A DNA stretch of 64,000 bases from Anaerobutyricum hallii. GTDB taxonomy: Bacteria > Bacillota > Clostridia > Lachnospirales > Lachnospiraceae. Positions 5,429 to 59,747 of the stretch are shown piece by piece (within the stretch, counting starts at the first letter, position 1; each line of letters begins with the position of its first letter). The stretch covers positions 927,219 to 991,218 of the forward strand of contig NZ_LT907978.1 in the NCBI RefSeq assembly GCF_900209925.1, in the 5' to 3' direction. Both the position numbers and the translations under genes were made by a program. The notes under the pieces are model-generated. The model saw only the letters and a list, made by a program, of their open reading frames with translations. It was not told the origin of the DNA and made no database searches.

Positions 5429-5493
5429 ATTTCTATTAATCCTCTCTGTAAAAAGATTCGTAATTCATAAAAGCCTTTGTAAAATAATAACGC

Positions 5494-5529
5494 ACATCTC
5501 GCAGCAAGAGTGTCGAGATATTCTTGAAT
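5494..5529. repeat. Short dispersed palindromic repeat, copy 1
   Basis: Contains CATCTCGCAGCAAGAG followed by TCGAGATATTCTTGAAT. Closely related copies lie at 34722-34756 and 36284-36316, all intergenic. Each can fold by pairing AAGAAT with ATTCTT, or alternatively CATCTC with GAGAT/GAGGT. Confidence 0.55.
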
Positions 5530-26669: not shown

Positions 26670-28556
26670 ATGAGGATTCATAACAGAGAAGAGTTAAGCA
26701 AGATTCGTGAGATGGCAGCAGGTAAAGTTTCTTCAACGAAGTGCCGTATTTTGATTTGTGCAGGAACAGGATGTTTAGCCGGTGGTTCAGGTGAGATTTA
26801 TGAGAAAATGTGTGAACTTACAAAGGATTGCAAAGATGTTGATGTTGAATTTGGACCAGAAATCGCACATGGAAGTGAACATCCAGTTGCAGTGAAGAGA
26901 AGCGGTTGTCATGGCTTTTGTGAGATGGGACCGCTGATGAGAATTGAACCGCTTGGTATTCTTTATACGAAAGTAAAACTAGAAGACTGCGAAGAGATTT
27001 TTGAAAGAACGATAAAGCATGGAAATATTATCCACCATCTTTTATATAAGCAGGATGGTGTTGAATATCCAAAGCAGGAAGAGATTCCATTTTATAAGAA
27101 ACAGACCCGTCTGGTACTTAAAAATTGTGGACATATTGATGCAGAACATATAGAAGAATATATTGCAGTTGGCGGATATCAGGCATTTGCAAAGGTATTG
27201 TTTGAACAAACACCGGATGACGTAATTGAGACGATTTTAGAATCAAATCTGCGAGGTCGTGGAGGCGGTGGTTTCCAGACAGGATATAAGTGGAAACAGG
27301 TTGCAAGACAGCAGGAGAAAACACGTTATATTGTATGTAATGGTGATGAAGGAGATCCGGGAGCATTTATGGACAGAAGTATCATGGAAGGTGACCCTCA
27401 TAAAATGATAGAAGGTATGCTGATTGCAGCTTATGCAGTAGGGGCACAGGAAGGATATATTTATGTACGTGCAGAATACCCGCTTGCAATCAGTCGTCTT
27501 CGCCTAGCAATTTCACAGGCAGAGGAAAGTGGACTTCTTGGAGAGAACATTCTTGGAACAGATTTTTCTTTCCACTTACATATTAACAGGGGAGCAGGAG
27601 CTTTTGTATGTGGTGAAGGAAGTGCACTCACTGCATCTATTGAAGGTAAAAGAGGGATGCCGCGAGTAAAACCTCCAAGAACGGTAGAACAGGGATTGTT
27701 CGCAAAGCCAACCGTATTAAATAATGTTGAGACTTTTGCCAATGTTCCGATGATTATTGATAAAGGTGCAGCATGGTATCGGAGTATCGGGCCGGAAAAG
27801 AGTCCCGGAACGAAAGCATTTGCTCTTACAGGAAGTGTAAAAAATACAGGATTGATAGAGGTACCGATGGGAACTTCTTTGCGGGAAGTAATCTATGATA
27901 TCGGTGGTGGAATTAAAGGAGATGCACATTTTAAAGCAGTCCAGATTGGAGGACCGTCCGGCGGATGTCTCATCACACCACATTTAGATGTCAGCCTTGA
28001 TTTTGATTCCTTAAAGAAAATGGGAGCGATGATTGGTTCAGGAGGTCTTGTAGTTATGGACGATAAGACCTGTATGGTAGAAGTTGCCCGTTTCTTTATG
28101 AATTTTACGCAGAATGAAAGCTGTGGTAAATGTGTTCCATGCCGCGAGGGAACAAAACGAATGCTTGAAATACTGGAAAAGATTGTTGCCGGAAAGGGAA
28201 CACTTGAAGACTTAAATCTGCTTGATGAACTGGCTTCTATGATTACGGATACAGCACTGTGCGGACTTGGAAAGAGTGCAGCACTTCCGGTTATGAGTAC
28301 ACTTCGTCTTTTCCGTAAGGAATATGAAGAACATGTTGTCGATAAAAAATGTGCAGCAAAGAACTGTACAGCATTACGTCGTTTTGTTATCAGTCCGGAA
28401 CGTTGTAAAGGATGTTCAAAATGTGCAAGAAACTGTCCGGTTGGCGCAATCAGCGGACAGATTAAAAAGCCGTATGTTATTGATGACAGTATCTGTATTA
28501 AATGTGGTGCCTGTGAGAGTGCCTGTGCATTCCACGCAATTCATATAGAAGCATAG
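26670..28556 (+). CDS. hydB: NuoF-like flavin/iron-sulfur subunit of NAD-linked [FeFe] hydrogenase
   Basis: This 628-residue protein has, in order, a thioredoxin-like [2Fe-2S] domain (Cys30 and Cys35, then SGCHGFCEMGP), the FMN loop LRGRGGGGFQTGYKWK, the NADH loop CNGDEGDPGAFMDR, the [4Fe-4S] site ESCGKCVPCREG, and a C-terminal 2x[4Fe-4S] ferredoxin domain (CKGCSKCARNCPVGA and CIKCGACESACAFHA). This layout is that of HydB, the site where NAD(H) and ferredoxin electrons meet. It is the middle gene of a three-gene operon. Confidence 0.93.
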   Translation: MRIHNREELSKIREMAAGKVSSTKCRILICAGTGCLAGGSGEIYEKMCELTKDCKDVDVEFGPEIAHGSEHPVAVKRSGCHGFCEMGPLMRIEPLGILYTKVKLEDCEEIFERTIKHGNIIHHLLYKQDGVEYPKQEEIPFYKKQTRLVLKNCGHIDAEHIEEYIAVGGYQAFAKVLFEQTPDDVIETILESNLRGRGGGGFQTGYKWKQVARQQEKTRYIVCNGDEGDPGAFMDRSIMEGDPHKMIEGMLIAAYAVGAQEGYIYVRAEYPLAISRLRLAISQAEESGLLGENILGTDFSFHLHINRGAGAFVCGEGSALTASIEGKRGMPRVKPPRTVEQGLFAKPTVLNNVETFANVPMIIDKGAAWYRSIGPEKSPGTKAFALTGSVKNTGLIEVPMGTSLREVIYDIGGGIKGDAHFKAVQIGGPSGGCLITPHLDVSLDFDSLKKMGAMIGSGGLVVMDDKTCMVEVARFFMNFTQNESCGKCVPCREGTKRMLEILEKIVAGKGTLEDLNLLDELASMITDTALCGLGKSAALPVMSTLRLFRKEYEEHVVDKKCAAKNCTALRRFVISPERCKGCSKCARNCPVGAISGQIKKPYVIDDSICIKCGACESACAFHAIHIEA

Positions 28557-28568
28557 GAGGGGAAAGCA

Positions 28569-30257
28569 ATGAAATATATGACAATTAATAATAGAAAAGT
28601 TGCATTTGATGATGAAAAAAATGTGCTTTCTGTTATCAGAAAAGCGGGAATTAATCTGCCGACATTCTGTTATCATTCTGAACTTTCTACTTATGGCGCC
28701 TGCCGTATGTGTGTGGTAGAAGATGATAGAGGGAAGATCTTTGCTTCTTGTTCCGAGGTGCCAAGAGACGGCATGGTGATCTATACGAATACACCAAAGC
28801 TGCAGCATCATCGAAAGATGATTTTAGAGCTGATGCTTTCTGCACATTGCAGAGAGTGTACAACCTGTAAGAAGAATGGAGACTGTACATTACAGAATCT
28901 TGCAAAACAGCTTGGAGTCAGCTACATACGTTTTGAAAATAATAAACCACAGATTCCGATTGATGAAAGCTCAGATTGTATAGTTATTGATAAAAATAAA
29001 TGTATTCTCTGCGGAGACTGTGTAAGAACTTGTGAGGAGATTCAAGGATTAGGTATTTTAGAGTTTGCCTATCGCGGCTCTAAGATGCAGGTTATGCCGG
29101 CATTTGATCGAAAAATGGCAGAAACAGCCTGTGTTGGCTGTGGACAGTGTCGTGTCGTATGCCCGACAGGCGCTATAACGATCAAGCATAACATTCATCC
29201 GGTATGGGAGGCGCTTGCTGATAAAAACACAAGAGTTGTTGTGCAGATTGCTCCGGCAGTTCGTGTAGCTGTTGGTGATAAATTTGGTATACCAAAAGGG
29301 GAAAATTCTCTTGGAAAGCTTGTGGCAGCACTTCGAAGAATGGGATTTGATGAAATATATGATACAGATTTCGGTGCAGATCTTACGATTATGGAAGAAT
29401 CAAAAGAATTTTTAGAAAGAGTGAAGTCAGGAGAAAAATTACCATTGTTCACATCCTGCTGCCCTGCATGGGTAAAGTTTTGCGAGCAGAAATATCCGGA
29501 GTTACGCGAAAATATCTCCACCTGCCGTTCTCCACAGCAGATGTTTGGAGCGGTATTAAAAGAAGAAGCGCGGAATAATAAAGAAGATAGCAGAAAAACG
29601 ATTGTTGTTTCAATTATGCCATGTACTGCGAAAAAAGCAGAAATCCTCCGCCCAGAACATAAGACAGAAGGAGAGCAGGATGTAGATTTCGTATTGACAA
29701 CAACAGAAATCATCCGAATGATAAAAGAGGCAGGAATTGATCTGACACAGATGCCATGGGAAGCAATGGATATGCCATTTGGATTATCATCAGGAGCCGG
29801 TGTTATCTTTGGTGTAACTGGTGGTGTAACAGAAGCAGTCCTTCGTCGCTTGGTAGCAGATAGCGGAATGGAAGCCTTAAATGAAATTAAATTCACTGGT
29901 ATTCGTGGAACAAAAGGGATAAAAGAATCTATTATTCCATATGGAGACAGACAGCTTAAGATTGCTGTAGTCAGTGGACTGAAAAATGCAGATGAACTTA
30001 TCCAGAAAATAAAAAGTGGTGAAGCACAATATGACTTTGTAGAAGTCATGGCATGTAGAAGAGGCTGTATGGCAGGCGGCGGACAGCCAGTACCAATCGG
30101 CCCAAGAACCAAAGCAGCAAGATTTGAGGGATTATACCGCATTGACGATGCGGCACAGATAAAACGTTCTAATGATAATCCAATCGTAGGAGAACTTTAC
30201 GAAGGACTCCTTAAAGGAAAAGAACATAAGCTGCTTCACAATAATACTGATTTGTAG
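28569..30257 (+). CDS. hydA: [FeFe] hydrogenase catalytic subunit
   Basis: This 562-residue protein has an N-terminal [2Fe-2S] domain (Cys34, Cys45, Cys48, Cys61), a His/Cys cluster site (HCRECTTCKKNGDC), two [4Fe-4S] motifs (CILCGDCVRTC and CVGCGQCRVVC), and the three H-cluster motifs: TSCCPAW (295-301), MPCTAKKAE (350-358) and EVMACRRGCMAGGGQP. The third reads ACRRGC where most described enzymes have ACPGGC. It makes or consumes H2 and works with hydC and hydB. The last codons and the TAG stop fall inside the left end of a repeat element (30249 onward), so the native C terminus may be altered by a few residues. Confidence 0.93.
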   Translation: MKYMTINNRKVAFDDEKNVLSVIRKAGINLPTFCYHSELSTYGACRMCVVEDDRGKIFASCSEVPRDGMVIYTNTPKLQHHRKMILELMLSAHCRECTTCKKNGDCTLQNLAKQLGVSYIRFENNKPQIPIDESSDCIVIDKNKCILCGDCVRTCEEIQGLGILEFAYRGSKMQVMPAFDRKMAETACVGCGQCRVVCPTGAITIKHNIHPVWEALADKNTRVVVQIAPAVRVAVGDKFGIPKGENSLGKLVAALRRMGFDEIYDTDFGADLTIMEESKEFLERVKSGEKLPLFTSCCPAWVKFCEQKYPELRENISTCRSPQQMFGAVLKEEARNNKEDSRKTIVVSIMPCTAKKAEILRPEHKTEGEQDVDFVLTTTEIIRMIKEAGIDLTQMPWEAMDMPFGLSSGAGVIFGVTGGVTEAVLRRLVADSGMEALNEIKFTGIRGTKGIKESIIPYGDRQLKIAVVSGLKNADELIQKIKSGEAQYDFVEVMACRRGCMAGGGQPVPIGPRTKAARFEGLYRIDDAAQIKRSNDNPIVGELYEGLLKGKEHKLLHNNTDL

Positions 30258-30270
30258 ATTTGATGTAGAC

Positions 30271-30387
30271 GAAAAAAGAAATAATACCCTATCCCATCTG
30301 CTCTGTAGTCGCTGTATTTAAGATGCGAATGAGCATCTTAAACACGCTCCCAAGCCGCATCTGGGATAGGGTATTATTTCTTTTTTC
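30271..30387. repeat. Family-1 hairpin, copy 1
   Basis: The outer arms are a perfect 26-bp inverted repeat (30271-30296 with 30362-30387); the middle of the left arm reads ATAATACCCTATCCCA. Inside are a conserved CTGCTCTGTAGTCGCTG block, a central 10-bp stem TTTAAGATGC/GCATCTTAAA, and CTCCCAAGCCGCAT. The A-rich 5' and T-rich 3' sides and its position just after hydA make it a likely terminator. Confidence 0.8.
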
Positions 30388-30895
30388 TGACTATTCTAAA
30401 TCCACAGTTTGGCAACATGGAATGTACCAGAAGGATATGACTTTCCGGAAAATTAAATTCTAAAGGGCTGACATTCAAAAATCCGCTGAAGAATCCACTT
30501 GTTTTTCCGAAGTTTTCGTTTTTTGAGGCAAAATGAAGCGTTTAGCGTAACGGAACAAAAGCAAACTTATAAAAATTCTCTTTTCTTGCCATAGTTTTCT
30601 TACAATTCAGCAAAGAGTTCTATTACAGTGGCTGTTTAATCTTATTCCGCAACTCAGTTAAAAAATAAGAGGCCTTGTCCAGAAATTTACGATTTTTATT
30701 CAGATAAAATCTTCGGAAGGAAAAAAATTTTATTAAGAGATGTCTTGTAGATGTGAAGTTATCTCACATCTGATGTAACTAAATTTCAAGTATATACAAC
30801 AATTTAAATGTAAATCCTTTAGAATTTAATTCCATGAAAAATCATAACCTTCTGGAAAATCCCCATTCTCGCCAATTGTGGATTTAGCATAGTCA

Positions 30896-31012
30896 GAGAA
30901 AAGAAAAAACAATATACCCCAGATGCGGCTTGGGAGCGTACTTAAGATGCGGATGAGCATCTTAAATACAGCGACTACAGAGCAGATGGGGTATATTGTT
31001 TTTTCTTTTCTC
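30896..31012. repeat. Family-1 hairpin, copy 2 (inverted)
   Basis: A perfect 26-bp inverted repeat (30896-30921 with 30987-31012). The middle of the stem reads AACAATATACCCCA, different from copy 1 but fully self-complementary. The inner blocks are the reverse complement of copy 1. It lies about 150 nt upstream of glgA. Confidence 0.8.
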
Positions 31013-31071
31013 GTCTATACGAAATCTACAAATCGGAATTGAATTTTTCGAGAATTTAAAACTTCCTTTAA

Positions 31072-31100
31072 TTGACTATAGTTGTGTTATTTGTTAAAAT
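31072..31100 (+). promoter_or_regulatory. Promoter of glgA
   Basis: TTGACT (31072-31077), a 17-nt spacer, and TAAAAT (31095-31100), located between the repeat element and glgA. Confidence 0.55.
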
Positions 31101-31166
31101 AATTATATAAAGTAAAGAGATAAAACATCAACGTGTGTATCATCATTTCATGGATTGGAGAGAGTT

Positions 31167-33134
31167 ATGAGTAAGAGAATCAATACCAAAAAAACAACTA
31201 TGAAAACTGTTTCAACAGAAATAAAGGATGCTGTTGAGAAAACAGAAGTTGTCTCAACAGCAGAGGAAAAGAAAAAGGCAGATAAGCCGAAAGAAGAGTC
31301 GAAGAAAAAGGCAGATAAGCCGAAAGAAGAGTCGAAGAAAAAGGCAGATGAGCCGAAAGAAGAGCCAAAGAAAAAGGCAGAAGAGCCAAAAGAAGAGCCA
31401 AAGGAAAAGACAGATAAGCCGAAAGAAGAGTCGAAGAAAAAGGTAGCTAAGTCTAAAACAGTGACAAGGAAAAGGGCAGTTCGTTCAAAGACTGTGACTG
31501 AGGAAAAAGTAGCGGAACCAAAAACTACGACCAAAAAGAAAACGGTTCGTTCTAAGGCTGCAACAAAGGAAAAAGCAGATGCAACAAAAGAAAAAATAGC
31601 TGAAATAGAGGAAAAAGCAGCTACTCCGAAGACGACAACTGAACAGAATATTCCGATGGAACAGCCGGATTTAGGACCAAGAAGAAGTGTTGCTTTTATT
31701 GGTTCAGAATGTTATCCATTTGTTAAGACTGGTGGACTCGGAGATGTAATGTCTGCTCTTCCAAAGGCTCTGGCAAAATTAAACCTGGATGTTAAGGTGA
31801 TTCTGCCAAGATATAAGTGTATTCCTCAGGAGTATCAGGAAAAGATGGAATACAGGGGCTCCTTCTATATGAATCTCTGCTCCGATGGAAAACAATATTA
31901 TGTAGGAATCATGGAGTATCAGGAAGATGGTGTTGTCTATGATTTTATAGATAATGATGAGTTTTTCTCCTGGGGCAATCCATATACGAATTTGATAGAC
32001 GATATACCGAAGTTCTGTTATTTTGCAAAAGCTTCGCTTGCTGCGCTCAATTATCTGGATTGGACTCCGGACGTAGTGCATTGTCATGACTGGCAGGCCG
32101 CTTTAGTACCTCTTTACTTAAGAACCAGCTTTAGTGATACAGATGTGGGACGTGCGATTGCAGTACTTACCATACATAATCTGCGATTCCAGGGTGTTTA
32201 TGATAGAAAAATGATTCAATATTGGTCAGGACTTCCTGATTATGTATTTAATAAGGATTGCCTGACACAGAACTGGCTTGATGCAAATATGTTAAAGGGT
32301 GGAATCGATTACTGCAATAAAGTTACAACCGTAAGTAATACCTATGCTGAGGAGATTCAGACAGAGGAGTATGGTGAAGGACTGGCAGAACATTTAAGAT
32401 ATCACCAAAATAAAATTTTAGGAATTGTGAATGGTATTGATACAGATATCTGGAATCCGGCAACCGATAAGCTGTTGGCATCTAATTATGATGCAGAATC
32501 AGTGATAAAGAATAAAAAAGTGAACAAAAAGGCACTTCAGGAAGCGTTAGGCTTAGATGTAGATGAGAATAAGATGGTAATTGGACTGATTTCCCGTCTT
32601 ACAAACCAGAAAGGGCTTGATTTAGTGAATGACGTAATTCCAGGTATCATGGATGGAAATACACAGGTAGTTGTTCTTGGTACAGGTGATTCTCAGTATG
32701 AGGACACATTCCGCTACTATGAAAATAAATACAAAGGTAGTTTTTGTGCGTATATTGCCTACAATGAAAATGTGGCTCATAACATTTATGCAGGATGCGA
32801 TGCACTTTTAGTTCCATCAAGGTTTGAACCATGTGGACTTACCCAGCTTATATCTATGAGATATGGTGCAGTTCCGATTGTCAGAGAAACAGGAGGTCTC
32901 AAGGATACTGTTCAGCCTTACAATGTATTTGAAAATACAGGCAATGGTTTTACATTTGACAGATATGAAAGTGGCCTTCTTTACGATGCGATCAATAGAG
33001 CTAAGACTCTTTATTTCGAGAATAGAAAATGCTGGGATGATATGGTGATTCGTGATATGAATAAAGATGTATCCTGGGAAAAGAGTGCAAAACAGTACAA
33101 AGATATGTATGTAGGATTAACCCCAAGATATTAA
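31167..33134 (+). CDS. glgA: Glycogen synthase with a long Lys/Glu/Pro-rich N-terminal repeat extension
   Basis: This 655-residue protein ends in a normal GT5 starch/glycogen synthase (about 173-655): SVAFIGSECYPFVKTGGLGD with the ADP-glucose KTGGL motif at 187-191, VVHCHDWQAALVP, and the C-terminal SRFEPCGLTQLISMRYG. It adds glucose from ADP-glucose to glycogen. The first 170 residues are not part of the enzyme family: they are low-complexity, with tandem KPKEESKKKAD-type units (about 35-95) followed by Lys/Thr/Val-rich sequence. I use ATG 31167 after GGAGAG; an upstream in-frame TTG at 31155 overlaps that RBS. No other glg gene is adjacent. Confidence 0.9.
   Translation: MSKRINTKKTTMKTVSTEIKDAVEKTEVVSTAEEKKKADKPKEESKKKADKPKEESKKKADEPKEEPKKKAEEPKEEPKEKTDKPKEESKKKVAKSKTVTRKRAVRSKTVTEEKVAEPKTTTKKKTVRSKAATKEKADATKEKIAEIEEKAATPKTTTEQNIPMEQPDLGPRRSVAFIGSECYPFVKTGGLGDVMSALPKALAKLNLDVKVILPRYKCIPQEYQEKMEYRGSFYMNLCSDGKQYYVGIMEYQEDGVVYDFIDNDEFFSWGNPYTNLIDDIPKFCYFAKASLAALNYLDWTPDVVHCHDWQAALVPLYLRTSFSDTDVGRAIAVLTIHNLRFQGVYDRKMIQYWSGLPDYVFNKDCLTQNWLDANMLKGGIDYCNKVTTVSNTYAEEIQTEEYGEGLAEHLRYHQNKILGIVNGIDTDIWNPATDKLLASNYDAESVIKNKKVNKKALQEALGLDVDENKMVIGLISRLTNQKGLDLVNDVIPGIMDGNTQVVVLGTGDSQYEDTFRYYENKYKGSFCAYIAYNENVAHNIYAGCDALLVPSRFEPCGLTQLISMRYGAVPIVRETGGLKDTVQPYNVFENTGNGFTFDRYESGLLYDAINRAKTLYFENRKCWDDMVIRDMNKDVSWEKSAKQYKDMYVGLTPRY
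31277..31445. repeat. In-frame tandem repeat encoding the charged N-terminal tail of glgA
   Basis: About five 30-33-bp units based on AAGCCGAAAGAAGAGTCGAA followed by AAAAAGGCAGAT. The repeats keep the frame and vary between K-P-K-E-E-S and E-P-K-E-E-P. They also create spurious open frames on the opposite strand. Confidence 0.75.
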
Positions 33135-33139
33135 TTACT

Positions 33140-33420
33140 GATTTGTAGATTTGGTAATAGACGAAAAAAGAAAAAGTGATATATCCCATCTGCTCTGTAG
33201 TCGCTGTAGTTAAGATGCTCATCTGCATCTTAACTATGCTCCCAAGCCGCATTTGGGATATATCACTTTTTCTTTTTTCTGGCTATTCTAAATCTACAGT
33301 TGGGCAACGTGGAATGTACCAGAAGGATATGACTTTCCAGAAAATTAAAGTCTAAAGGATTGACGCATTTCTTCTGGGGATTTTACCCAAATAAAAATCG
33401 TAGATTTCTGGACAACCCCC
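33140..33420. repeat. Single family-1 unit with flank (half element)
   Basis: It starts with GATTTGTAGATTT (33140-33152) only 5 nt after the glgA stop and contains a family-1 hairpin at 33163-33279. Downstream sequence (GGCAACGTGGAATGTACC and AGAAGGATATGACTTTCC) is shared with element 1 at about 30410-30450. It ends near AAAATCGTAGATTTCTGGAC. No inverted partner unit follows. Confidence 0.65.
33163..33279. repeat. Family-1 hairpin, copy 3
   Basis: A perfect 26-bp inverted repeat (33163-33188 with 33254-33279) with a private middle AAAGTGATATATCCCA. The central stem is GTTAAGATGC/GCATCTTAAC, where copies 1 and 4 have T and A at the closing pair. It is probably the glgA terminator. Confidence 0.8.
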
Positions 33421-33442
33421 TTTATTTTCTCCACACAAAAAC

Positions 33443-33611
33443 CTGATTTCATCTGGCGCCAAAGAACAGAAAAGCAGAAACTTTATATAGAATAAAATGT
33501 GATGTCGGAGCAAATAAAAATGCCGGCTAGGCATTTTCTATGCCGCGACTATCTTCACATTTTATTCTATATAAAGTTTCTGCTTTTCGTTTCTTTAGTC
33601 TATCAAATCAG
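33443..33611. repeat. Family-2 169-nt hairpin repeat, copy 1
   Basis: Bounded by CTGATTT and AAATCAG. The main stem pairs CAGAAACTTTATATAGAATA plus AAATGTGA with the matching inverse at about 33555-33582, and an apical stem AAAATGCC/GGCATTTT lies inside. A second copy of identical length lies at 59579-59747. Immediately follows the family-1 half element. Confidence 0.75.
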
Positions 33612-33632
33612 GCTTGTTTCTTTTTTTGTATC

Positions 33633-33661
33633 TTGACAAATAACTCCCTTTTAGCTATAAT
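33633..33661 (+). promoter_or_regulatory. Consensus promoter of the amino acid ABC transporter
   Basis: TTGACA (33633-33638), a 17-nt spacer, and TATAAT (33656-33661): a perfect sigma-A consensus. The start codon of the binding protein is 66 nt downstream. Confidence 0.85.
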
Positions 33662-33726
33662 ACTTTAGTGTAGTGCATTGATAAAACTACGCAGAGATTA
33701 TAAGGGAAAGAAAAAGGAGAGATACT

Positions 33727-34593
33727 ATGAAAAAGATAATTGCTATGCTTTTAGTTCTCGTAATGAGCGTTACAGGATTAGTTGGATGTGGTTCTTCTAA
33801 TAAGAGTGGCAGCGAAGCTGGTTCTACAAGTACAAGTTCTGATTCTGATTGGGCTTATATTCAGGGAAAGGGCAAGCTTACAGTTGGTATTACATTATTT
33901 GCACCGATGAATTATTATAATGAAAAGAATGAGCTTGTTGGTTTTGATACAGAGATGGCACAGGCTGTGGCAAAGAAGCTTGGCATTGATGTAGAATTTA
34001 GTGAAATTAACTGGGATTCTAAAGAGGTAGAGTTAAACTCTAAGAATATTGATTGTCTTTGGAATGGAATGTGTATTACCGAAGAGAGAAAGCAGAATAT
34101 GAGTGTTTCTGATCCATATCTTTACAATACACAAGCTATGGTAATGAAGAAGAGCAGAGAAAAAGAAATCATGAAGAGTGTAAAAGGTCTTACTGTTACA
34201 GCAGAACAGGGTTCTACTGGTGAAGGTAAGATTGACGGTTCTATTGCCGATGATGATACAGTAAAGGTTTCTGCTAAGGATTACTTTAAAGATGCGAACT
34301 ATGTAGCTTCTGATTCTATGGCTAAGGCTCTCATGGAAGTAAAATCAGGAACAGCAGATGTTGCTTTAGTTGACAGTGTATGTGCTCTTGGTATGGTTGG
34401 CGAAGGAACAGATTATGAAGATTTAGTTATCAACATGGATAATAACTTTGGTCAGCAGGAATATGGTATCGCATTCCGTAAGGGCAGCGATGTGACAGAA
34501 AAGGTAAATCAGGCAATCAAAGAACTTTATGAAGATGGAACGGTAGATACGATTGCTAAGAAATACGATTTACAGGATATGTTGATTAAATAA
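33727..34593 (+). CDS. Polar amino acid ABC transporter substrate-binding lipoprotein
   Basis: This 288-residue protein has a lipoprotein signal (MKKIIAMLLVLVMSVTGLVGC, lipid attachment at Cys21), a Ser/Gly-rich linker, and a family-3 periplasmic-binding fold (KGKLTVGITLFAPMNYYNE, LVGFDTEMAQAVAKKLGID, DCLWNGMCITEER). It captures a polar amino acid outside the membrane and delivers it to the permease encoded next. The ligand cannot be read from the sequence. It lies behind a perfect promoter and is separated from the permease by stem-loops, which fits excess production of the binding protein. Confidence 0.92.
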   Translation: MKKIIAMLLVLVMSVTGLVGCGSSNKSGSEAGSTSTSSDSDWAYIQGKGKLTVGITLFAPMNYYNEKNELVGFDTEMAQAVAKKLGIDVEFSEINWDSKEVELNSKNIDCLWNGMCITEERKQNMSVSDPYLYNTQAMVMKKSREKEIMKSVKGLTVTAEQGSTGEGKIDGSIADDDTVKVSAKDYFKDANYVASDSMAKALMEVKSGTADVALVDSVCALGMVGEGTDYEDLVINMDNNFGQQEYGIAFRKGSDVTEKVNQAIKELYEDGTVDTIAKKYDLQDMLIK

Positions 34594-34704: not shown

Positions 34705-34721
34705 GTTGTGGTTTCAGCCGG

Positions 34722-34756
34722 GCATCTCGCAGTAAGAATGCTGAGGTATTCTTAAA
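34722..34756. repeat. Short dispersed palindromic repeat, copy 2
   Basis: GCATCTCGCAGTAAGAATGC followed by TGAGGTATTCTTAAA. It is related to 5494-5529 and 36284-36316. Confidence 0.55.
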
Positions 34757-34792
34757 ATTATTTAAAATATATGAAGAAAGAAGGATAAGATT

Positions 34793-36260: not shown

Positions 36261-36279
36261 TGTCATGCGTTGCATGACA
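36261..36279 (+). repeat. Small hairpin after the ABC operon
   Basis: TGTCATGC pairs with GCATGACA around a 3-nt loop. It lies 25 nt after the ATPase stop and has no T-tract. Confidence 0.4.
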
Positions 36280-36283
36280 CATA

Positions 36284-36316
36284 TTTCGCAGCAAGAATGC
36301 TGAGATATTCTTGAAT
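36284..36316. repeat. Short dispersed palindromic repeat, copy 3
   Basis: TTTCGCAGCAAGAATGCTGA followed by GATATTCTTGAAT. It is nearly identical in its core to copies 1 and 2. Confidence 0.55.
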
Positions 36317-53024: not shown

Positions 53025-53051
53025 ATCCTGATTTGTAGATTTCGTGTAGAC

Positions 53052-53168
53052 GAAAAAAGAAAGAATACCATATCCCATCTGCTCTGTAGTCGCTGCATTT
53101 AAGATGCTCATCTGCATCTTAAACACGCTCCGAAGCCGCATCTGGGATATGGTATTCTTTCTTTTTTT
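53052..53168. repeat. Family-1 hairpin, copy 4
   Basis: A 26-bp inverted repeat with one terminal mismatch (53052-53077 with 53143-53168) and a private middle AAGAATACCATATCCCA. The central stem is TTTAAGATGC/GCATCTTAAA. It is probably the terminator of the Gld-like operon. Confidence 0.8.
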
Positions 53169-53553
53169 TATCTAATCTAAATCTACAGTTGGTAAGAATG
53201 GGGATTTTCCAGAAGATTATGACTTTTCGAGAAATTAAATTCAAAAGAGCTGACATTTAAGTTGTTGTATATACATGGAATTTAGTTATATTAGAAATCG
53301 TAGACTTTTGGACAATCCCCTTGTTTTTTAACTGAGTTGTGGGATGAGGTTAGAAAGCCGCTGGTTTTTTGAGGAAAAATGAAGTATTTAGCGTAACGGA
53401 ACAAAATCAAACTTATAAGAATTCGCTTTTTTTTAGAAATCTCAATGCAATTCAGCAACATACAACAATTTGAATGTCAACTCTTTAGAATTTAATCCCA
53501 TGGAAATCCACAACCTTCGCGAGAATCCCCATTCCCGCGAACTTGAATAGTCA

Positions 53554-53670
53554 GAAAAAAGAAAAAATGCCCTATCCCAGATGCGGCTTGGGAGAGTAGT
53601 TAAGATGCGGACGAGCATCTTAACTACAGCGATTACAGAGCAGATGGGATAGGGCATTTTTTCTTTTTTC
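53554..53670. repeat. Family-1 hairpin, copy 5 (inverted)
   Basis: A perfect 26-bp inverted repeat (53554-53579 with 53645-53670) with a private middle AAAATGCCCTATCCCA. The central stem is GTTAAGATGC/GCATCTTAAC. Confidence 0.8.
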
Positions 53671-53804
53671 GTCTATACAAAATCAATCTATAAATCTTTA
53701 TGTAATCTTAATATGGTAGTCGATATATTTATACTATCTTTGAATGCGGACATATATAATGAGGGGAAACATGCCGGATGAAATAGTAATAACAGGAGGG
53801 ATTT

Positions 53805-59578: not shown

Positions 59579-59747
59579 CTGATTTCATCTGGCGCCAAAG
59601 AACAGAAAAGCAGAAATTTGATATAGAATAAAATGTGATGTCGGAGCAAGTAAAAATGCCGGTCAGGCATTTTCTACGCCGCGACTATCTTCACATTTTA
59701 TTCTATATCAAATTTCTGCTTTTCGTTTCTTTAGTCCATCAAATCAG
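59579..59747. repeat. Family-2 169-nt hairpin repeat, copy 2
   Basis: The same length and ends (CTGATTT...AAATCAG) as 33443-33611. The main stem differs from copy 1 at two places on the left arm and at the two matching places on the right arm, so pairing is kept. Lies between two convergent genes and probably terminates both. It accounts for most of the 59473-59750 gap. Confidence 0.75.

Follow-up and report, generated by a model that had tools for sequence, protein, structure and literature searches.

The window, by which we mean the whole 64,000-nt stretch of DNA analysed, lies in a genome (G000) assembled as a single contig of 3,515,670 bp. It carries long hairpins, most of them arranged in three elements, the first of which lies between a hydrogenase gene and glgA. 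The features are as follows.

30247..31036, no strand assigned: Element 1, two A hairpins in facing orientation; ends CTGATTTG...CAAATCGG; hydrogenase gene on one side, glgA on the other
30271..30387, plus strand: A-family hairpin module (GAC|G...C|TG) of Element 1
30896..31012, minus strand: A-family hairpin module of Element 1
33138..33611, no strand assigned: Element 2, an A hairpin facing a B hairpin; directly 3′ of glgA
33163..33279, plus strand: A-family hairpin module of Element 2
33469..33588, minus strand: B-family hairpin of Element 2, with a 34-bp stem and the core TAGTCGC...GCTCC
53028..53697, no strand assigned: Element 3, A hairpins facing each other, inverted arms; stop codon before the left end; right end degenerate and its position therefore approximate
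53052..53168, plus strand: A-family hairpin module of Element 3, outermost pair G-T
53554..53670, minus strand: A-family hairpin module of Element 3
59605..59724, minus strand: B-family hairpin with no recognised partner within 1500 nt

A preliminary description of the window had reported five copies of the A hairpin, at 30271-30387, 30896-31012, 33163-33279, 53052-53168 and 53554-53670, and these positions were borne out. So was its statement that the 26-bp closing stem pairs perfectly in four copies, the fifth (53052-53168) having a G-T pair at the outermost position. It was silent on strand; copies 30896 and 53554 lie on the minus strand. Each copy folds into the 26-bp closing stem enclosing a conserved interior, with energies of -57.7 to -62.4 kcal/mol. 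The core described as conserved is common to the copies but not invariant, with GTAATC in 53554, CTCCGAAG in 53052 and GCATTTGGG in 33163. The pattern TAGTCGCN{20,50}GCTCC has six matches in the window, compared with 0.05 expected, and these are four of the five A copies and two B-family hairpins. Element 1 is about 790 bp long, with hairpins 30271 and 30896 at its two ends and detectable inverted arms, and the stop codon of the hydrogenase gene is supplied by the element end itself, as happens in some other genes.

The starch synthase protein encoded by glgA (31155-33134) is 88–94% identical to copies in Blautia, Anaerostipes and Faecalibacillus, which have other neighbours and, in the loci read, no such hairpins; this combination suggests recent transfer between genera. 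At the N-terminal part there is a 33-bp repeat (31204-31512), present seven times and coding for a Lys/Glu-rich stretch, and the corresponding stretch in A. hallii is similar but longer.

The genome and its relatives were searched with a covariance model, as the preliminary description had proposed, and the family proved far larger than five copies. Built from 35 copies, the model found at least 150 places in G000, all scoring above 120 bits; the figure is a lower bound, with window copy 33163 (960376 in G000) missing from the matches listed. Among 24 genomes of the genus it matched G000 and G152 (A. hallii DSM 3353), and among 150 genomes of the family G000 alone. The core pattern TAGTCGCN{25,55}GCTCCNA (TAGTCGC...GCTCC) gave 212 matches in G000 and 194 in G152, with none for the reversed control in either genome and 0–2 in each of the other 22 genus genomes. 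In a sample of 397 Lachnospiraceae genomes, mostly one per genus, the 395 other than G000 and G152 had at most seven matches each. The five window copies are thus a fragment of a superfamily with more than 100 long hairpins in each of two species.

A hairpin with TAGTCGC...GGCTCC was found in another genus (G210), in 11 matches including six near-full copies. Of five folded, four have long, closely pairing closing stems that differ between copies, and one (L238) pairs less well. One G210 hairpin has a reverse transcriptase gene next to it; according to Rfam, an ordinary group II intron is present there, whose 3′ part ends just before the hairpin, and a link to such introns was set aside. Viral contigs contained no match to the A core, and the single match to the C core falls within an open reading frame, on an unrelated contig and without the rest of the hairpin, and was taken as chance.

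The preliminary description had taken stems which change repeatedly and still pair as strong evidence that they are either selected for structure or rewritten by a self-copying mechanism. Retention of pairing through sequence change holds in many copies and in a second species, and fits selection as well as rewriting. When 35 copies are aligned, both partners vary in 15 of the 28 closing-helix pairs, and doubly changed cells number 103, compared with 25.7±3.7 after shuffling and at most 16 in slid controls. Across 35 genomic copies, 98.6% of cells pair, as opposed to 90.8±0.4 in shuffles, and 18 pairs are changed on both sides (8.6±1.3 in shuffles). A search by core alone gave 86 A copies, 82 of which could be parsed and four could not; 65 of the 82 have no mismatch in 26 bp when G-T is allowed. 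Between the 80 copies with at most four mismatches, left arms differ at 3.9 of 26 positions, and mispairs (mismatch or G-T) average 0.41 per copy. Of the cells in these 80 that depart from the commonest pair, 185 are Watson-Crick, 9 G-T and 24 mismatched. All four combinations occur in 14 of 28 column pairs among 54 perfect stems.

Hairpins of another family, C, show the same covariation in A. hallii with far more diverse stems. The core search found 35, of which 34 were parsed; four with more than three mismatches were set aside, leaving 30. Arms in these 30 differ by 43% between copies, with 28 distinct arms and an average of 0.67 mispairs per ~32 bp, and the 34 parsed hairpins together contain 1046 Watson-Crick, 19 G-T and 37 mismatched cells. 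The core motif is forward in 102 of 106 hairpin entries and reversed in none.

Among the observations that the preliminary description named as refuting its reading, two concern the pairing. The first, further copies with unpaired stems, occurs rarely: length shifts apart, the closing stem contains at least two mispairs in 4 of 64 aligned A copies. The four are at 1197073, 2879279, 3132983 and 3003953, and the first three look like hybrids of two stem types. The second was covariation no greater than shared ancestry would give. On a phylogeny of 78 copies that leaves the stems out, at least 139 pair-state changes over 16 columns are required, compared with about 175 when labels are shuffled, so that ancestry explains only part of the covariation. 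Stem type is not correlated with the enclosed core (Mantel r=0.026, p=0.375; 54 copies), and among stem, core, head and tail in these copies the sole correlation is that of core with head (r=0.149, p=0.039). With most segments uncorrelated, most of the signal of descent is lost, and that stem and core vary independently therefore says little in favour of rewriting.

Facing pairs are common among the hairpins, and so is a position at a stop codon. The stop-codon test could use 82 of 83 A hairpins, those with sufficient flank; in 67 of these the outer end lies no more than 100 nt from a sense stop codon, compared with 632 of 3000 random ends, and in 62 the offset is -23 to +13 nt. A stricter rule, which assigns each hairpin by the longer frame, places the 83 at 59 gene ends, 22 gene starts and two other positions. 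A first pass over 99 core hits gave 33 facing pairs (66 hits), 19 of them A-A and 14 A-B. Among the remaining 33 unpaired hairpins, 15 are faced, at distances that vary, by a hairpin of a different family; ten further unpaired hairpins showed no clear partner stem on inspection. In five related species of the genus, a short hairpin with a T tail, identified by eye, follows the gene that is the hydrogenase gene of the window. By their position the hairpins are candidate transcript 3′ ends. The 3′ edge of the stem is T-rich in the A family, the C family has no T run, and a simple terminator scan of 28500-34500 marked none of these hairpins.

A search of A. hallii with 40 outer flanks from G000 gave 29 distinct sites. 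As read from the sequences, an element end is present at 24 of them in A. hallii too, of C type (whole, decayed, core-deleted or remnant) at 23 and of A type at one. The flank of the A-type site is 96% identical, which is probably due to recent exchange. Four sites have no element in A. hallii (L182, L185, L199 and L201), L185 carrying a short terminator-like hairpin instead, and one (L183) was counted neither as occupied nor as empty. Where an element is present and the 8-base end could be read in both species with at most two mismatches, the ends agree within 1 nt at 9 of 13 sites, a count that excludes sites with worse ends, some of which have larger offsets; at several sites the A. hallii end is 4–17 nt away. 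Window sites 1 and 2 have C hairpins in A. hallii (a C-family pair at site 1), and at site 3 the A. hallii contigs break. With 24 of 29 sites occupied, 23 of them by C type, the majority of sites would seem to predate the families found in them today. Among the C hairpins, three that have lost the core (L176, L191 and L202) retain paired stems. Amid ~86% identity between G000 and A. hallii, two stretches (G152:C39:322-1830 and L177) are 96–97% identical, a sign of recent exchange between the two species.

The modules have a common anatomy. Each is a hairpin with the boundaries GAC|G and C|TG, ~117–120 nt in length (more in the C family). Its closing stem (26–34 bp across modules) is variable and nearly perfect, and encloses an asymmetric core loop, which is conserved, and an inner stem. 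The backbones that hold the modules have heads and tails specific to the family, and often two modules face each other. Element ends read AAATnCTGATTTG in A and the related CTGATTTG in B and C, and differ in F. Further families are B, D, F and G, of the same anatomy, and E (L070, L060, L056 and L061 in G000), which is of another kind: it spans 168 nt with flanks GCTGAATTGTA...TACAATTCAGC and sometimes faces an A hairpin, and half of it is also present inside Element 1 of the window, near 30518-30587. The outer heads of C elements in A. hallii (L192 and others) contain small palindromes of their own, GCCGCAGGC and GTCTGCAAGGCAGAC, between CTGATTTG and AGACG.

Six elements combine F-type heads and tails at both ends with an A hairpin at one end and an F hairpin at the other. 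The two ends agree at 0.90 in the head, 0.85 in the tail and 0.57 in the core, and A hairpins in F backbones agree with 49 A-in-A hairpins at 0.95 in the core, 0.89 in the arms, 0.64 in the head and 0.57 in the tail; all are raw values, with no baseline for unrelated AT-rich sequence. Automatic labels were wrong for 328035 and 874918 (B called A) and for the F head 2989343 (called A), and our statements rest on the sequences themselves. The mixed elements are the most direct evidence that what is replaced is the hairpin. Their joints (GAC|G...C|TG) are sharp; at them, A and F have about nine bases in common on the left and several on the right, so that short-homology recombination is possible.

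Based on these observations, we tentatively favour a reading in which the copies belong, as modules, to a superfamily of palindromic, non-autonomous elements of Anaerobutyricum; the sites at gene ends would stay fixed, and each hairpin would be exchanged there as a unit. A trans-acting enzyme would recognise the folded single strand by its shape and conserved loops, not by stem sequence, and would copy or swap the hairpin as one unit, as TnpA-REP acts on REP hairpins. If movement involves the entire hairpin and depends on its folding, stems could diverge and stay paired, and arm-templated repair may add to their perfection. At gene ends the hairpin would replace the ordinary terminator as the transcript 3′ end, and would be kept there for that reason. 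The evidence for this reading is of several kinds: covariation with few one-sided changes, found also among the far more diverse stems of A. hallii; the forward core (102/106, reversed in none); the excess of stop-codon positions over random ends; the presence of another family at the same sites, two of the window's included; the six A/F elements that share heads and tails but not cores; and the short T-tailed hairpins after the same gene in five related species. Against it stand the lack of a linked enzyme in the loci read, the homology at the A/F joints, the absence of a terminator call, the C stems with no T-rich 3′ edge, the uncorrelated segments, which blur history, and the few badly paired copies (4/64).

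We think a shape-recognising enzyme acting in trans the likeliest motor. Y1 transposases are present in 16 of 24 genus genomes, with 13 matches in the two hairpin-rich species; of these, the six loci read are not directly flanked by hairpins, though a hairpin pair lies ~1 kb away at L233 and an unclassified 33-bp stem ~1.3 kb away at L222. No transposase lies inside the elements in the 33 facing pairs read. The two longest inter-hairpin spaces, considered as a possible autonomous parent, hold ordinary-looking genes, by eye CrcB-like and NUDIX-like. One element (L032, G000:449775) has a 79-aa ORF between two facing A hairpins, with no Pfam family match, and TTGACA-like motifs occur near the inner ends.

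If modules swap at fixed sites, what is passed on is the position and what changes hands is the sequence, opposite to the behaviour of ordinary transposons. A fuller exchange system can be imagined, which we regard as unlikely, in which gene ends would be fixed docks and a structure-specific enzyme would excise modules and re-seat them as folded single strands at GAC|G...C|TG; seated hairpins would then be rewritten arm from arm, giving each locus a private paired stem. Were it true, one family could replace another genome-wide with no movement of sites, and the element would take over transcript 3′ ends.

The strongest competitor of modular replacement, in our view a somewhat unlikely one, is that these are old 3′-end hairpins, with pairing selected gene by gene and copies homogenised within a species by homologous gene conversion. 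The gene-end position, the apparent age of the sites relative to the families filling them, and the hybrid stems, which would reflect exchange between copies, all agree with it. However, A and C have little common sequence to recombine through, F backbones hold A hairpins yet keep their own heads and tails, and the core-deleted C hairpins, paired as they are, argue that the core is not needed for every role. Arm-templated rewriting with no functional selection, in which a polymerase stalls and takes one arm as template for the other (quasipalindrome template switching), strikes us as quite improbable. The process makes inverted-repeat arms identical and is known in E. coli and yeast, as described in PMC7202029 and PMC8604942, and the scarcity of one-sided states among changed cells, the four combinations in half of the column pairs of perfect stems and the independence of stem type from core fit it. 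Nevertheless, the core loops are in no case made complementary, no inverted core occurs among 106 entries although the process is known to invert spacers as a side effect, and sites, families and module swaps are left unexplained. That rival families each insert beside stop codons and struck the same sites separately in two species is very improbable, for in spite of the common outer motif AAATnCTGATTTG, the four empty sites and the ends displaced by 4–17 nt in A. hallii, most sites are occupied (24/29), most of the readable ends coincide within 1 nt (9/13, with worse ends, some at larger offsets, excluded) and A modules lie inside F backbones.

Consistent with the earlier statement that no named family fits, no Rfam family reached its gathering cut-off for these hairpins; only a tRNA did so in the window, and the best sub-threshold match scored 44.8 bits against a cut-off of 140. 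We file the elements as extragenic palindromic repeats, REP/BIME-like in arrangement but far larger, with module swapping as the unusual part. Like REPs, BIMEs and REPINs as outlined in PMC3733652, they are extragenic palindromes in high copy number that lie downstream of genes and frequently face each other; the opposed pairs downstream of genes of the GTAG and CGTC superfamilies have their counterpart in the 33 facing pairs and 67 of 82 sense gene ends. REPs are described there as palindromes of 20–40 bp with stems of 5–13 bp, whereas modules here reach 117–120 nt or more with 26–34-bp stems, and several families share backbones. In the accounts of PMC3733652 and PMC8266576, recognition of REP hairpins relies on a conserved motif together with mismatches in the stem, and stem changes are tolerated; TnpA-REP requires a tag plus, in E. 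coli, a bulge in the stem (PMC8266576). REPs of the two superfamilies have an unpaired GTAG or CGTC tag at one hairpin end. Here most hairpins have AGACG (CGTCT on the other strand) at the base, with its CG half paired; GTAG is seen in family A, just ahead of the inner stem, and is absent in B, C and F. The GTAG families of REPs have a linked Y1 transposase gene (RAYT), and of the 13 Y1 loci in the two species the six read showed no direct hairpin flank.

In being short, present in many copies and provided with shared inverted ends, with no transposase inside the elements read, they resemble MITEs, but the hairpin modules vary independently of the ends. The 33 pairs read contained no autonomous parent with the same ends. 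No clear target-site duplication was seen in the outer flanks compared by eye. Integron attC sites are folded strands with variable stems, recognised by structure as is proposed here; attC, however, with its R/L box core sites and an integron integrase, follows cassettes in one direction, whereas these hairpins face each other at gene ends, and no integron-type core boxes were noticed in them by eye. Intrinsic terminators share the place right after the stop codon and, with A stems, the T-rich 3′ edge, but the hairpins here are much longer, have a conserved internal loop, and lack the combination of a G+C-rich stem with a direct T run. Quasipalindrome template switching differs in being a mutation process rather than a repeat family, and leaves conserved loops, sites and swaps unexplained.

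No published description of these hairpins was found among open-licence PMC papers. By term search, the main text of RepRanger (PMC12306157) mentions neither Anaerobutyricum nor Eubacterium, and that of a stem-loop survey (PMC2267715) does not mention Eubacterium. With more than 100 hairpins in each of two culturable gut species, the set offers natural replicates for separating structural selection from arm-copying mutation, and lets one ask by what route many genes could have come to take their 3′ ends from a mobile element. Among the other repeats of the window is a 43-nt intergenic sequence with ATCTCGCAG..AAGA, present in three copies (5487-5529, 34715-34757 and 36274-36316) with 70–84% identity to the reference.
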